Notes under the pieces: model-generated
Database searches by the model: none
Told to the model about the DNA's origin: nothing
Seen by the model: the letters and a program-made list of their open reading frames with translations, nothing else
Shown: piece after piece, positions 5,375 to 20,890 of the stretch
How positions within the stretch are numbered: position 1 is the stretch's first letter
How the letters are laid out: each line of letters begins with the position of its first letter
IMG/VR virus record: IMGVR_UViG_3300036832_000864
Span: 1-24,497 of that record
Origin: a virus
Reading direction: 5' to 3' (one strand)
Length of the DNA: 24,497 nucleotides
Translations under genes and position numbers: made by a program

Positions 5375-5599
5375 ATGGCGTGGTTCTGGGGCTATTCACG
5401 GATGCAGGGCGATCCGGGGCCGTGTCCCGTGGACGATACTCCGCACACCGCCTGCACGCCCGAAAGCGTCGGCGGCTCGCTGACGGTGCATAGTCACCGG
5501 CCGCGCGTGCTGGATCGCACGCCCGCGCCCGCGACCGCCGTGTCGCCGCCCTTCACCACGAAAACGTATCGACGGCGCCCGCGGAAGGTCATCCCGTGA
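5375..5599 (+). CDS. Small hypothetical protein between capsid and connector
   Basis: A 74-aa protein with a GGAAGG ribosome site at 5362-5367, seven bases before ATG 5375, and a GTGA overlap with the connector gene at its end. The sequence starts with an aromatic stretch (MAWFWGYSRMQG), is rich in Pro and Thr, and ends strongly basic (YRRRPRKVIP). It has no recognisable domain. Position suggests a minor head protein or a protein joining capsid and connector, but low-complexity composition gives little support. Real translation is likely because of the ribosome site and coupling. Confidence 0.65.
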   Translation: MAWFWGYSRMQGDPGPCPVDDTPHTACTPESVGGSLTVHSHRPRVLDRTPAPATAVSPPFTTKTYRRRPRKVIP

Positions 5600-6617: not shown

Positions 6618-6987
6618 ATTTCGCGAAATGCTCGCGGCGCTGCCGGCCAATCTGGCGGCCGAAGCCCAAGACATCGTCCGCGATGCGGCGGTCGCCGCGT
6701 TCGATGCGGACCTCGCTGCCTATCCGCCCGGCGAGCTCCGCGACAGCATGGTCCTGCTCGATGAAGGGACGCCGCTCGACGTGGTGTGGCGCGTCACCAA
6801 CAAGTCGCCGCTCTCCACGTTCTGGGAATACGGCACGCAGGTCCGCCACACCAAGATGGGGTACAACCGCGGCGCGATGCCCGCGGCGCCGACGTTCGTG
6901 CCGAATGCCCAACGCGCGCGCGTGGACATGCTTCGCCGCTTGGTCGCGGTGCTCGAAGAAGCGGGTTTCGACGTGAGCAACGTATGA
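6586..6987 (+). CDS. HK97 gp10-like neck/tail completion protein
   Basis: A 133-aa protein of the HK97 gp10 family, thought to sit at the head-tail joint. GTG 6586 is the first start; ATG 6595 (MLLDGVAEF) is an alternative three codons on, and no ribosome site separates them. The family pattern is visible as LDGVAEFREMLAALP, the helix to YPPGELRDSMVL, and the highly typical STFWEYGTQVRHTKMG followed by PAAPTFVPNAQRARVDM. Ends with ATGA overlap with the tail terminator gene. Confidence 0.85.
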   Translation: MAQMLLDGVAEFREMLAALPANLAAEAQDIVRDAAVAAFDADLAAYPPGELRDSMVLLDEGTPLDVVWRVTNKSPLSTFWEYGTQVRHTKMGYNRGAMPAAPTFVPNAQRARVDMLRRLVAVLEEAGFDVSNV

Positions 6988-7856
6988 GCCTGCCCGATAC
7001 CAGCGCGGTCGATGAAGCGCTCGTCGCCGTGTTGAGCCATGACGCGGCGCTGCACGCGATCTTGCCTGACGGCGTGGCGTTCGACCTCGCGCCGCAAGGC
7101 TGGACCCAATTCGTGATCGTGACCCAACTCGCGCACGTGGACGTCTATTCGATGACGGGCGCGCCGAATCCGGCATCGGCGTACGAGACGGTCACCTATC
7201 TGGTGAAAGCGGTTGCCAAGGGCACCAGCGGCCTCGCGACGAAAGACGGCGCCGCGCGCATTCACCAACTGTTGCAAGGCGCCTCGATGCCGATCATCGG
7301 CTACGACCTGATGCAGATGGAACGCACCGAACGCGTGCGCTACACCGAACTTGATCAAGCGACCCAAGATCGCTGGAACCATCGGGGCGGGCATTACGAC
7401 ATCTGGGTCACGCCCGAAAGTGCGGAAGGAGATGACCCCGTGGGCTACTACGCCATTGATTCGTTCGGTGGTGATCGCAGCGTCTACCAACAGACCGAGA
7501 TCGCGAACGCCTATCCGACGATCAACGCCACGCAACCGTATGCGGCGGTCGCGCCCGGCACCGTGCTGCTGGTGCTCGATACGCTGCCCGCCGATGGGCA
7601 AGTCCAGTTCGAACTGTCGGCGCGGCTGCAAGCGGCGGGCGGCGGCGTGGTCGGTAAAGCGGCGCTCTTCAACATGGACCGCCAGACCGTGATCCCGGGC
7701 TCTGAACTGTCGTTCCCGGCGGACGATGTGATCGGCTCGCGGCAACGGAGCGGCCCGCTGACGCTGGCGCCGAGTGTCGCCTATGGCGTGCTGATCACCA
7801 CGTCGGCCGCGGCGAATGGGCTGGCGGTGTGGGGCGCGAAACTCGTGCATCCGTAG
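6984..7856 (+). CDS. Tail terminator (DUF3168-like) fused to an extra beta-rich domain
   Basis: A 290-aa protein. Residues 1-150 match tail terminator/DUF3168 proteins: helix SAVDEALVAVLSHDAALHAI, QFVIVTQLAHVDVYSM, and the closing strand GGHYDIWVTPE. That family normally ends near here at 130-150 aa. Residues 153-290 form a second domain of predicted beta strands (GTVLLVLDTLPADGQVQFEL, VAYGVLITTSAAANGLAVWG) with no family I recognise, perhaps a decoration domain on the tail terminus. The junction holds a consensus ribosome site and an in-frame GTG, so the second domain may also be made alone. Confidence 0.75.
   Translation: MSLPDTSAVDEALVAVLSHDAALHAILPDGVAFDLAPQGWTQFVIVTQLAHVDVYSMTGAPNPASAYETVTYLVKAVAKGTSGLATKDGAARIHQLLQGASMPIIGYDLMQMERTERVRYTELDQATQDRWNHRGGHYDIWVTPESAEGDDPVGYYAIDSFGGDRSVYQQTEIANAYPTINATQPYAAVAPGTVLLVLDTLPADGQVQFELSARLQAAGGGVVGKAALFNMDRQTVIPGSELSFPADDVIGSRQRSGPLTLAPSVAYGVLITTSAAANGLAVWGAKLVHP
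7427..7442 (+). promoter_or_regulatory. Internal ribosome site and GTG start inside the tail terminator gene
   Basis: AGGAG at 7427-7431 (in GGAAGGAGA) is followed after eight bases by GTG 7440, in the same frame as the surrounding gene. Start there would give a 138-aa protein ending at 7856, beginning VGYYAIDSFGG. This is as strong as the ribosome sites of the capsid and major tail genes. It lies exactly at the boundary between the terminator domain and the extra domain. Confidence 0.55.
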
Positions 7857-7864
7857 GTGACGCC

Positions 7865-8599
7865 ATGAAGTATCCGATCCCCGTCGCGATTCTCTGCGGT
7901 CTGCTCGGCTCGACGCTCGGCGTCTGGGCGCAGAACGAAATCTCGCGGTTTCAAAAAGTCGTCATCACCTCGACCGATCCCGATGCGCTGATCGTCGGCG
8001 GCCAACCTGTCTCGGGCGGCGGCAGTACACCGAGCTGCGGGCCGAATCAGTTCGTGCAGAGTTCCACCACGTGCGGCAAAACGCTGCTCGCCGCGAACCC
8101 GACCGCGACGACGCCGCTGTTGACCGTGGGCTATACGAACAATCCGACGCTGTTTCAGGTCTACACCGACCCGAATCCGAACGATGACGGCATCCGCGTT
8201 TTTGGTGGTGTGTATTTCGGCGGCAGCACCGGCAGGCAACTCGCCGTCGAATCGCCGGGTAATGACATCGGCGGGTTTTTCTCCATCACGCAAAACAACG
8301 AGATCATGAACGATCTCACGCGGCCCACGCTGACGTCGGGCTTCGGCGCGGGCGCGGCGTTGCAGGCGCACGCGACCGGCAGCCTCGGCCGCGTCACGCT
8401 GGGCACCGCCCCGGGCGCGACGTTGGTACTGGATACCAGCTTGTCATCGAGCGTCCCTGGCCCCGTGTGCATCTTTCAAAACGAAACGACCGGCACGTTG
8501 TTAGGCCATACGCAAAGCACGGGCACGATCACCATTACGGGCACGTTCACGGCAGGCGACCTGATCACGTGGATGTGCTGGGACATGCGCGGACCATGA
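7865..8599 (+). CDS. Protein with N-terminal signal peptide in the tail module
   Basis: ATG 7865 gives 244 aa; the frame is open 12 codons to the left but those overlap the previous gene and would hide the signal. Residues 1-22 look like a signal peptide: Lys2, a hydrophobic core (PVAILCGLLGSTLGV), then VWA before Gln23 as a signal peptidase I site. The rest is Gly, Thr and Ser rich, with strand-like repeats (LVGGQPVSGGG, PTATTPLLTVGYTNNPTL, VYFGGSTGRQLAV) as in beta-helical or fibre proteins, and several cysteines that could pair outside the cytoplasm. The stop is in an ATGA overlap with the glycosyltransferase. Either a secreted surface protein or a tail adhesin; function unknown. Confidence 0.65.
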   Translation: MKYPIPVAILCGLLGSTLGVWAQNEISRFQKVVITSTDPDALIVGGQPVSGGGSTPSCGPNQFVQSSTTCGKTLLAANPTATTPLLTVGYTNNPTLFQVYTDPNPNDDGIRVFGGVYFGGSTGRQLAVESPGNDIGGFFSITQNNEIMNDLTRPTLTSGFGAGAALQAHATGSLGRVTLGTAPGATLVLDTSLSSSVPGPVCIFQNETTGTLLGHTQSTGTITITGTFTAGDLITWMCWDMRGP

Positions 8600-9648
8600 A
8601 AGTCTTGGTCGTTTCACCGGGCGCCGCATGGTCCACCGCCGACGTCGATGCCGGTCTGCGCTACGGCCTCGCCGCGCATGGCGTCCAAGTGGTGCGCTTC
8701 CGCCTGACCGAACGCATCGAGCGCTCGCGCAGCCTGCTCTATGGCGCATGGCGCAAAGCCAAACGCACGCGGCCCGACCTGAAACGGCCGACCGCGGGCG
8801 ACGTCTTTTACGAAGCGGGCGAACGGGCGGTGACGATGGCGCTGCGGCACGAGGTCGATGCGGTGATCGCCGTCTCCGCGATGTTTCTGCATCCCGACGT
8901 GGTGATTATGATGCGCCGCGCCGGACTGCGCGTGGTCGTCCTGTTCACCGAATCGCCCTATGACCTCGCGAGCGAGGTCGCCGTGGCCAAACTGGTGACC
9001 GGCTGCTGGACCAACGAATCGAGCGCCCTGCCCAACTTCCGCGCGGTCAATTCGCACGCGGGGTTCCTGCCGTGCGCGTGGCATCCCGAGATCCACACGC
9101 CCGAGCCGCAAGCGCTTGATGCCACCGTCGATGCCCACGACGTCGTTTTTGTCGGGTCGGGCTGGGCCGACCGCGTGGCGTGGTTCGAACGCCAGGACTG
9201 GACCGGCATCGATCTCGGGCTCTACGGCCACTGGCCCACGGTCGGGCGCCGTCACCGATTGGCGCGCTACGTCCGCCATGGCGCGGTCGATAACGCGCGC
9301 ACCGCGGCGCTGTATCGGCGCGCGACACTGGGGCTCAACCTCTATCGAGACACGGGCGGCGCGCCGGCCGAATGTCTGAACCCTCGGGCCTACGAACTGG
9401 CGGCGTGCGGTGTGGTGCACTTCAGTTCCCCGCGCGCCGAAGTGACCGCGCGCTTCGGTGACTTGGTGCCCATCGTGCCGGACGGGATCGCCAGCGGCCT
9501 CATTCGCGACTGGCTTGCAGATGCAGACCGGCGGGCCGCGGTTCGCGCGGCCTTGCCAGCGACGGTATCGGACGCGTCGTGGATTCTCCGCGCGCGCACG
9601 GTGATCGGCGATTTACAAACCCTGCTGCGGGCCACCGCCGCAGCGTAG
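8596..9648 (+). CDS. Glycosyltransferase, GT-B fold, CgeB/DUF3880-like
   Basis: A 350-aa protein starting at ATG 8596 in an ATGA overlap. The N-terminal Rossmann half starts MKVLVVSPGAAWS; the C-terminal half has VVFVGSGWADRVAWF, then ALYRRATLGLNLYRDTGG and AECLNPRAYELAACGVVHF. That last part is the nucleotide-sugar-binding motif of the family 1 type found in CgeB-like proteins. It would transfer a sugar from a nucleotide-sugar donor; acceptor unknown. Placed between the tail terminator and major tail protein, it may decorate virion proteins or the secreted protein encoded just before it. Glycosylation of virion proteins is known in some actinobacterial phages. Base composition matches the neighbours, so no sign of recent transfer. 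Confidence 0.85.
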   Translation: MKVLVVSPGAAWSTADVDAGLRYGLAAHGVQVVRFRLTERIERSRSLLYGAWRKAKRTRPDLKRPTAGDVFYEAGERAVTMALRHEVDAVIAVSAMFLHPDVVIMMRRAGLRVVVLFTESPYDLASEVAVAKLVTGCWTNESSALPNFRAVNSHAGFLPCAWHPEIHTPEPQALDATVDAHDVVFVGSGWADRVAWFERQDWTGIDLGLYGHWPTVGRRHRLARYVRHGAVDNARTAALYRRATLGLNLYRDTGGAPAECLNPRAYELAACGVVHFSSPRAEVTARFGDLVPIVPDGIASGLIRDWLADADRRAAVRAALPATVSDASWILRARTVIGDLQTLLRATAAA

Positions 9649-9659
9649 GAGAAACGACG

Positions 9660-10052
9660 ATGCTTCACCACGGTAAGAACGGCGCCATCTACGCTTCGAC
9701 GTCGGCCGCGGGCGCGGCCGCCTTGGTCGCGCACATCTCCGATTTCACCCTCGACATGGTGCAAAACACCGTCGAAACCACGTCGATGGGTGACACCAAC
9801 AAAACCTATGTCACCGGCCTGAAGGACGTTAAAGGCACGCTGACCGGGTTCTGGGACGACACCGACGATACGTTGTTCGATGCGGCGGATTCGATTGACG
9901 GCATCGTGCTCGCGCTCTACCCGTCCGTGGTGGTGCCGGGCAAGTGCTTCAGCGGTCCGGCGTGGCTCGACGTCTCGATCAAAACCGGCGTGGCCGCGGC
10001 GGTGACGCTCTCCGGCAACTTCGTCGCGAACGGATCGTGGAAGCGGACCTAA
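9660..10052 (+). CDS. Major tail (tube) protein
   Basis: A 130-aa protein preceded by TAGGAGA at 9646-9652, seven bases before ATG 9660, fitting high expression. The pattern HISDFTLDMVQNTVETTSM, then VTGLKDVKGTLTGFWDDTDD and LYPSVVVPGKCFSGPAWL, is that of short tail tube subunits with the gpV/Hcp-like beta barrel, and the final strands (AAVTLSGNFVANGSW) complete it. It forms hexameric rings stacked round the tape measure. At 130 aa it is near the lower end of the family and lacks the extra immunoglobulin-like domain of lambda gpV. Position before the chaperones is standard. Confidence 0.9.
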   Translation: MLHHGKNGAIYASTSAAGAAALVAHISDFTLDMVQNTVETTSMGDTNKTYVTGLKDVKGTLTGFWDDTDDTLFDAADSIDGIVLALYPSVVVPGKCFSGPAWLDVSIKTGVAAAVTLSGNFVANGSWKRT

Positions 10053-10843: not shown

Positions 10844-13800
10844 ATGCCGACCATGAACGCGCGGTTCAACGCTGATTTCACCTCCTTCTCGGCCGCGGTC
10901 GCGCAGGCGGATGTCGAGTTACGCGGGTTCGACGCGAACATCGGCGACGTCAGCAAAAGCCTGTCGAAGATGGTCGATGACTTCGGCGGGCGCCAACTGA
11001 TCGAACAAGCGACCCTGATGGCCGATGCCGTCGCCAAGATCGGCGGCGCCAGCCAACTGACCGACGAACAACTCGCGCGCATCAACGCCACCGTCAGTGA
11101 GGCGTCGGACAAGATCGCGCGGCTGGGCGGCGAAGCGCCGCAGTCCTTCCAAGACATCACCGACGCGGCGAAACGGCTGGACGATCAGGACAAATCCACC
11201 GGCACGTCGTTCACCGAACTGGTGTCGAGTTTCGTCAGCGCTCAAGCGATCATCGGCGCGCTGACGACGGCGTGGCACACGCTGATCGGGTTCATGGAGG
11301 ATTCGATCACCGCGGCCAATGACGAAACCGCGGCGCAAAACAAACTCAATGCGGCGCTGACGGCGCAAGGCACGTTCGTGCCCAGCGTCACCAAGGCGTA
11401 CGAGGACTACGCCAAAAGCCTGCAACAGACGACGACCTATTCGGCGGTGACGATTACCCAGACCGAAGCGATGCTCGCGCTGGTGGGCGGCGTGATGCCG
11501 CTCGACATGGAACACGCGCTGCACGCGACGACCGATCTGGCGGCGGGCCTCGGCGTCGATCTGAAAACCGCGACCGAAATGGTATCGCGCGCGGCCGAAG
11601 GCAACATCACCGTCTTGAGTCGGCACGGGGTCGAACTGGATAAGACGCGCGCGGCGGCCGAAGGCTTTGGCTATGTGCTCGATCAGATCGACGCCAAGTT
11701 CGGCGGACAGGCGGCGACCGCGGCGCAGACCTACGCCGGGCGGCTGGCGCAACTGTCGAACGCATGGGGCGACGTCGAATCGGCGGTCGGCAAGATCATC
11801 ACCCAGAACGGCACCGTGCTGAAAGCGGTGTCGCTGGTCACCGAAGCGCTGAACAAATACACCACCGATCTCGATTTCAACCGGCAGACGAATAACTTCG
11901 TCTCCGATGCGCTGATCGACCTGACGCAAGCGATGGCGTTCGTGATCCAGTCGGTGACCTGGCTGGTCGGCAAGTTCGCGGACTTCCACGTCGCCGGGCT
12001 CCAACTCGAAAAAGATTTGCTGCGCACCGAGAAGGCGTTTATCGACATGGCCGACGCCTCGCTTCAGGTGTTCCGGATCACCGACCCGGTCGGCTGGGCG
12101 CGCACGTGGTCGGTGGCCTCGAAAGACATGGAGGTCGAGAGCGACCGCATCGCGCAAAAAATCAAAGACCTCAGCACCGCGCAGAATGACACGGCGAAAA
12201 CGACCGACGACTGGGCGAAGAAAAACGCGACGATGCAGGCGGCGCTGGCGGACTTCGGGAAGCAACTCGAAGCGACCCGCGGCCAGACCGTGAAGCTGGC
12301 CGACGCCAGCCAGCAGAACGCGAACGCGTGGGACAACAGCACGCAACCGCTCGCCCAAAACGTCAAGGCGCAGAAGGACGGCCAGAAGCAAGCGGACCTC
12401 TACGCCAAAGCGCTGCAAGGGCTCACCGACGCGATTGGCGGGCCCGATGGCCTGAACCCCGCGACCTACGAAGGGATCAAATATTTTCTCCAGTACAGCC
12501 AGAACACCGGCGACATCGCGCGCGTGATGGGCACCACCGCCGAAGCGGTCAAGACGGTATCCGATGCGCTGAAACAAAGCGCCAAAGACGCCGACGTGTT
12601 GCAGAACATGCGCGACCGGATCGCCGGGCCCGATGGCCTCGATCCCGCGGTAGTCGAAGCGATCAAGTACTTCCTCGAATTCGGCAAGAGCGTCGAGGAC
12701 ATCGCCAAAATCATGGACGTGTCGAAAGGCGCGGTCCAAGGCGTTGACGACGAAGTCAAGGTGATGGCCTACATCCACCAGCAAACGCTGGGGACCATCA
12801 AGATCGCGTACGAACAGTGGTCAAAGTCCACGACCGCCGCTCTGAAAACGACCAACCAAGCGGTCGCCGACAATCTCACCGCGACGGTGGACTGGCAGAA
12901 AAAGCTCGGCGATCTCCTGGACACCAGTCCGATTCACAAAATCTCCGAGACGTGGAAAACCGAGCTCGCCAAGCTGGACGATCCCGAACATCGGATGCAA
13001 GAGAACTGGCAGGCCGCGGTCGATTCGCTCAACGCCTATTTCACCGAGCAGATCAAAGAGGAAAAGTGGAAAGACGCGCTCACCACCGCGGGCACCGGCG
13101 CCGCCACCGATTTCATGTCCGCGTTCGAAGGGCAACTAGCGCAGTTGCCGGGTCTGATCAGTAGCGCGATAGGCGGCGGCAACATCAGCCAGGGCTTCTC
13201 CAATCTCGGGAAAACGCTCGCCGGCAATATCGGCAGCGACATCGGCAAAAGTTTCGCGACCAGCGGCGTGGGCGCGAGTATCGGCAGCACGATTTCGAAT
13301 GCCGTCGCGGGCGGCAGCACCAAAGCGGCGGGCCTGTTCACCAACGTGATCGGCGGCGCCATCAGCGGGGTCGCGACACTCGGCATCAGCACGGCGATCA
13401 GTCTCGGGGCGACGTTCATCGGCAAGCTGTTCAACGATCCCGAAAAGCAAATCAACCCGGTCCGTGAAGCGTTCGTGCAGGCGGCGGGCGGGCTCGACAT
13501 GTTGAACCAGAAGGCCTACGCCGCGGGCATGACGCTGAATCAGTTGCTCCAAGCGAAGAACGCCGACCAATACAACGCGGCGATCCAAGCGCTCAACGAC
13601 GGCTTCACCCAGCAGGCGACGGACCTGCAACTGGTGACCGACACCGCGGCGAAATACGGGTTCACGCTCCAAGAGCTGGGCCCCGCGCTGCAAAAGCAAG
13701 CGCTCGATACCCAAGCGCAGCAACTCTACAAAGATTGGCAAGTCCTGAATTCCGCGGGGCTCGACACCGTTGCGATTACGACGCGTATGGCCAGCAGCGT

Positions 13801-20206: not shown

Positions 20207-20400
20207 TCGCGGGTCTATTGCTGGCGATGCTGGCGAGCGGCTGCGGGCTGGAAAGCGATCTGAAACATCGCCTCCACCTGCGGTCGCTGGTCTGCGCCGA
20301 TGGCTGGCCGGTGAAACTGTTACAGGACTCGCGCTGCCCGGACGGGATCTGCGGCTACACCTGCGCACCAGGACGATGGGCCGATGTCGTCACACCTTGA
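20158..20400 (+). CDS. Small cysteine-rich lipoprotein
   Basis: ATG 20158 gives 80 aa; the frame continues left but only this start yields a proper signal: basic residues (MGLRQRRPTPGR), a hydrophobic core (LIAGLLLAMLA), then ASGC with Cys29 as the lipidation site. The residue at -3 is Ala, less usual than Leu. The mature part is about 52 residues with Cys46, 60, 65 and 69, and ends GRWADVVTP. The start lies 49 bases inside the preceding gene in another frame. It could be an outer-membrane spanin-like protein or a surface-exclusion lipoprotein. The stop overlaps the convergent methyltransferase gene by 11 bases. Confidence 0.6.
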   Translation: MGLRQRRPTPGRVTDLIAGLLLAMLASGCGLESDLKHRLHLRSLVCADGWPVKLLQDSRCPDGICGYTCAPGRWADVVTP

Positions 20401-20890
20401 ATCCGACGTAGAACAAATCGCCGCGCGCCGTGGTCGCCAGATGTGTCCCGCATAATCCGGCAGCCGCGGCCCACGTCGCCACCTCCGCGCCAGAACAATT
20501 CCGGTAAAACTCACCCGGCCGCAACGGGCCACCATCGCGCGCCGAATGCGGTGCCCTGCCCGTGGTGGCACAAGTCACGATCACGATCCCATCGGTCGCG
20601 ATCATCTGCCCGATTTGCGCAAAGATCGCCGCGGCCTCTGCGGTGTGCTCCAAGACTTCGCAACAGACCACCGTGTGAACTTTGACCGCGGGCACGAATG
20701 CCGCGGCATCGGCGACGACATCGACGCCGGGCCCCGCGATCAGATCGACTCCGATATACGGCGGCGCGCAGGCGGCGAACAAGCCGCGGACGCTGCCGTT
20801 GATGTCGCGCGATCCGAGTTCGATCACCGGGCCGTGTGGCTGATAGCAAGCCACCGCCCATTGGACAAACGCAAAGGCTTCCGCGTGCAT
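20390..20890 (-). CDS. Class I SAM-dependent methyltransferase
   Basis: A 166-aa protein with the fold pattern of Methyltransf_11-type enzymes. Motif I is VIELGSRDINGSVR (residues about 22-35), Asp49 in IGVDL would bind the ribose, DAAAF follows near 61-65, and VVCCEVLEHTAEAAAIF is the typical motif IV with the EHT/EH element. Substrate is unknown; there is no DPPY/NPPY or PC motif, so a DNA base methylase is not supported. The start ATG overlaps the large terminase stop by one base (TGATG). The C-terminal end runs 11 bases into the convergent lipoprotein gene. Confidence 0.8.
   Translation of the reverse strand: MHAEAFAFVQWAVACYQPHGPVIELGSRDINGSVRGLFAACAPPYIGVDLIAGPGVDVVADAAAFVPAVKVHTVVCCEVLEHTAEAAAIFAQIGQMIATDGIVIVTCATTGRAPHSARDGGPLRPGEFYRNCSGAEVATWAAAAGLCGTHLATTARGDLFYVGFKV

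Follow-up and report, generated by a model that had tools for sequence, protein, structure and literature searches.

A viral tail terminator gene fused to a beta-rich C-terminal domain, with a candidate in-frame start at the joint

Does a tail terminator gene that runs on into an additional beta-rich domain, with a ribosome site and a GTG codon at the joint, encode one protein or two, and how did the domain come to be attached? The gene lies on one viral record, 24,497 bases long, analysed here as a whole and referred to as the window, and extends on the plus strand from an ATG at 6984 to a TAG at 7856 (290 aa). Residues 1-152 (6984..7439, plus strand) comprise a tail terminator domain and a linker, and residues 153-290 with the stop codon (7440..7856, plus strand) a beta-rich C-terminal domain of 138 aa that belongs to no known family. 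The linker, ESAEGDDP (7416..7439, plus strand), consists of the eight residues past the usual stop point of the family, as placed by alignments and by the ends of relatives.

By family match and gene position, the N-terminal part is identified as a PF11367-like siphophage tail terminator. Residues 11-126 match Pfam family PF11367 (Tail_completion_gp17), with a score of 24.8 bits for the N-terminal part alone, just over the cut-off of 24.5, and of 22.9 bits for the whole protein. A phrog_5 connector lies upstream and a phrog_10528 major tail protein downstream, and named phages show the same gene order around the terminator. The resemblance to siphophage terminators (PF11367; counterparts lambda gpU, SPP1 gp17 and T5 p142) covers the N-terminal ~145 residues, the HK97 gp10-like gene before and the tube protein after, and the hexameric ring that would be expected of the product; the 138-aa C-terminal domain, in contrast, is lacking in 128 of the 132 distinct relatives. 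These relatives came from a search with the terminator part, which gave 58 viral loci, and from two further scans that added about 150. In the same 128 of the 132 distinct homologous cores the protein ends at most 43 aa past the core, mostly at most five, which bears out the preliminary description's remark that the frame exceeds the usual family length. A typical relative ends in RWNHRGGHYEVWVTPV followed by a stop codon, where the frame of the window continues, and the terminators, or genes in terminator position, of named phages with related capsid proteins encode 118-130 aa, with the tube protein directly after.

Long extensions occur in only four of the 132 cores, namely in three lineages of the window's clade and in L089 (L089:2544-3353), where the terminator is fused to a different extension of 132 aa, beta-rich in appearance. 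Kinship between this extension and the 138-aa domain was considered and rejected, there being no similarity by BLAST or HHalign; since the two are unrelated, fusion to the terminator must have arisen at least twice. Relatives of the C-terminal part were found in five viral records, of which L002 and L003 are nearly identical to the window, L004 and L005 form a second lineage and L007 a third. The second and third lineages share 72% protein identity with the window overall, with 61-62% in the terminator part and 83-84% in the C-terminal part, and a stretch of 25 residues from A147 to T171, leading from the linker into the domain and including AEGDDP, is invariant across lineages. Comparison of the sequences strongly supports a 290-aa fusion that is derived and clade-specific. 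The preliminary description had offered a recent gene fusion or a lost stop codon as alternatives to a second product, and of these the fusion stands, in three lineages, whereas an indel or lost stop introduced by assembly does not.

The 138-aa domain has no match in Pfam, PHROGs, NCBIfam or PDB sequences. It was not found as a stand-alone protein in the phage collection, in viral contigs (three queries) or in genome contigs (two queries), the contig scans being built on short peptide patterns that reach close relatives only, nor by a profile search of six-frame translations of the loci and of the forward frames of all loci; the only records recovered were the same five fusions. Stand-alone homologues of the second part directly after terminators, which had been proposed as supporting evidence, were thus looked for and not found. 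An AlphaFold2 run with three sequences yielded an all-beta model with a mean pLDDT of 55, with values of 51-78 for most of the core and poor ones for the first 41 residues. A prediction of the full-length protein was set aside (mean pLDDT 42). Foldseek matches to the domain model were weak, the best in the PDB at E 6.6e-3, with no PDB match at E <= 0.001, and the best viral match at E 7.7e-4, and they were largely of one kind, namely CBM6/CBM35-type modules, C1q/TNF/BclA-like jelly rolls, the cement protein of phage KHP40 and collagen-fibre proteins of viruses. Tail terminators are ring-shaped hexamers that sit at the tail top, some of them with extra domains, and the T5 terminator with a C-terminal tag undergoes aberrant polymerisation (PMC11784142), for which reason a C-terminal domain on a terminator may not be neutral. 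The most likely role would be that of surface domains arranged in a ring around the neck, which perhaps bind glycans, a role proposed because of the weak fold similarity and the neighbouring genes.

Those neighbours occupy a slot between the terminator and the major tail (tube) protein, which forms its downstream border (9660..10052, plus strand; phrog_10528, E 5.7e-11). The window's slot is filled by the fused domain, by a 244-aa protein that is hydrophobic at its start and fibre-like by eye (7865..8599, plus strand), and by a PF13524 glycosyltransferase (8596..9648, plus strand; Pfam E 8.6e-12), related genes of which are found in the slot of many relatives. The 244-aa protein is 83-84% conserved and specific to the window's clade, and its gene and the fused domain were found only together. 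It looks membrane-anchored, which is odd among virion genes. The slot is empty in 62 relatives, holds a glycosyltransferase in 57 (21 also with a methyltransferase) and has other content in six, counts that are skewed towards the glycosyltransferase, one scan having used that protein as query. The PF13524 glycosyltransferase lies between terminator and tube protein in loci L025, L029, L032, L038, L050 and L075-L150, often accompanied by a methyltransferase (MSRDVLLYGLSQS...) or by another transferase, and may modify the virion or the host surface. The region between terminator and tube gene has the appearance of a hot spot for insertions. Three terminators (L106:57-563, L181:2982-3971 and L191:1616-2086) carry a short Trp-rich tail (e.g. 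SGWIQPGWLQTP), which might be a docking peptide; the genes after them begin similarly and are fibre-like. Slot genes of 164 aa (MHPAAYRFVAAIVSAG...VVELGGRDVNGSIRGLF) sit in L133, L145 and L150, and by eye a minus-strand open reading frame of the window (20390-20890, start MHAEAFAFVQWAVACYQPHGPVIELGSRDINGSVRGLF) is like them. Elsewhere in the window, the tape measure gene contains a direct repeat of ~93 bases (12427-12519 and 12613-12705, 72% identical).

Taken together, the locus is probably best read as a terminator that has captured a neck or tail-top decoration domain, with the fused protein as the main product. The fusion is read directly from the frame, while the order of events given here is the one that we infer. 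In the ancestor of the clade, accessory genes would have entered the slot between the terminator and major tail protein genes, an entry proposed because the slots of relatives are empty or differently filled. The terminator stop would then have been lost, letting the frame run through the eight-residue linker and on into a former gene, probably the first of the accessory ones, whose ribosome site and GTG start would remain recognisable in the linker. Other terminators are followed by spacers of about the linker's length, and AGGAG occurs in several of these. A hexamer of the 290-aa terminator would display six beta-sandwich domains around the tail top, as a neck or tail-top decoration that most likely binds surface glycans, and some free 138-aa domain may, more tentatively, come from the GTG as well. 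Capture has against it that no stand-alone ancestor was found in the collections searched and that the model of the C-terminal domain is weak.

At the joint itself, a Shine-Dalgarno-like sequence, GGAAGGAGA (7424-7432, plus strand), contains an AAGGAG core (7426-7431), with AGGAG at 7427-7431, and precedes the candidate internal start, an in-frame GTG at codon 153 (7440..7442, plus strand) that is GTG in three lineages. The arrangement AAGGAG-N8-GTG falls exactly at the joint, AGGAG ending eight bases 5' of GTG 7440, and translation from this codon would give 138 aa; the coordinates and lengths first described were right. The start at 5596 is laid out similarly (GCGGAAGG...CCC-GTG). An out-of-frame ATG at 7432 was rejected as a real start, as it abuts the Shine-Dalgarno sequence with no spacer and is ACG in L007.

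It is, by a small measure, probable that the site is unused, being either a by-product of how the acidic linker EGDDP-V is encoded or a relic of the start of the gene that was captured. Chance expectation was estimated from synonymous shuffles of the late genes (4748 codons). AAGGAG placed 4-10 nt before an in-frame ATG or GTG was expected 0.14 times in these genes and seen once, and a looser 5-mer core before an in-frame start was expected 1.95 times and seen twice, so that about two such cores would arise by chance. With a permissive duplex energy as the only requirement, 3.2 equal sites were expected per shuffled region and one was seen. With the peptide held fixed, 21% of synonymous recodings pair equally well, and 9% combine such pairing with a start codon; the conserved peptide AEGDDP, which itself favours the motif, explains much of the joint site. 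Taken by itself the motif is no more than mildly unusual, and it is notable through its position at the usual stop point of the family. Among the three lineages, no excess synonymous conservation at the site could be demonstrated, and no conserved RNA hairpin was found around it, the region folding no better than shuffles and differently between lineages. An unused site is harder to reconcile with its placement exactly at the joint, with the ranking of the same codon first in all three lineages and with the rare glycine codon within it, the last two of which are detailed below.

Somewhat less than an even chance is given to one gene with two proteins, in which GTG 7440 also starts translation and yields the free 138-aa domain. 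This proposal is compatible with a fusion and adds to it an active start. Pairing with the anti-Shine-Dalgarno sequence at the joint (-8.8 kcal/mol) is stronger than at the MCP start (-6.8) and the MTP start region (-7.3) and is the best among internal in-frame starts of the window's late genes, and no other among them has a full AAGGAG, which here is well spaced. On an approximate initiation score, coded for this analysis after the RBS-calculator idea, GTG 7440 (+3.6) equals MCP (+3.7), ranks second among the window's 193 internal starts and comes first in its own gene; the preliminary claim that the site is of the strength used by structural genes is borne out by both measures. Within the terminator gene, the column of codon 153 outscores every other internal in-frame start in each of the three lineages, and in none of six neighbouring genes (seven genes compared) is the same codon on top in all three, although L005 and L007 are closely related and the comparison is in effect of two independent lineages. 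GGA makes up only 4-8% of glycine codons, yet it is chosen at the joint in two lineages. The layout at 5596 and the endolysin precedent discussed below also favour an active start. Against it, apart from the share of recodings that pair equally well, the score falls from +3.6 in the window to +8.0 in L007 and +10.0 in L005, and L005 has GGG for GGA. The independent fusion in L089 likewise shows no start with a ribosome site 3' of its joint. It had been suggested that homologues which were all fusions and lacked the element would count against a second product; all are indeed fusions, but AGGAG-N8-GTG is present in the window and L007, and AGGGG-N8-GTG in L005. Two proteins from this gene remain a tentative proposal, with the top internal start in three lineages in its favour. 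If free domains were made, they may join fused copies, giving a ring with more surface domains than terminator subunits; that full-length protein and free domain co-assemble into such a decorated ring at the tail top is itself considered unlikely. Finally, the idea that two genes were joined by an error of assembly or sequencing found no support and can be dismissed, because independent records share the open joint: it is open in all records with the C-terminal part, which come from three metagenome samples and represent three lineages, of which two reach only ~70% DNA identity to the window.

In lambda C/Nu3, a nested in-frame start gives a shorter product that is the C-terminal part of the longer one. 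The proteins there are a head protease and a scaffold, whereas a terminator and a surface-type domain are concerned here. By analogy of layout, the two-polypeptide endolysins are the closer precedent (PMC9430671, PMC7098653). In LysIME-EF1 and CTP1L, as here, an N-terminal functional domain and a C-terminal beta-rich domain share one frame, with a ribosome site and an in-frame start at the domain joint (PMC9430671); those proteins are lysins, whereas here a virion structural protein is concerned, the second product is only a candidate and no homology is claimed. The survey of endolysins trusts internal starts by conservation of their position, and predicted sites in 15% of portal genes were taken as false positives (PMC9430671). 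Lactococcal 936 phages bear carbohydrate-binding decorations on tail and neck proteins, some in part of the copies (PMC6669499), and so resemble the present case in that tail or neck proteins have gained beta-rich binding modules. The additions there are made by a frameshift on the tube protein or as separate neck proteins, whereas here the terminator is fused without a frameshift and sugar binding is putative.

Terminators with extra domains and two-product genes with internal starts are each already known. No match to a 138-aa domain on this terminator family turned up in the libraries searched, of which the paper library was partial, so that absence from it is weak evidence. The terminator caps the tail and docks the head; in nearly all of the 132 relatives it has stayed small. 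Two independent beta-rich fusions, together with a slot that holds fibre-like, glycosyltransferase and methyltransferase genes, suggest that these phages add surface functions at the tail top. The internal start, if truly used, would carry the two-polypeptide strategy beyond lysins into virion structure.
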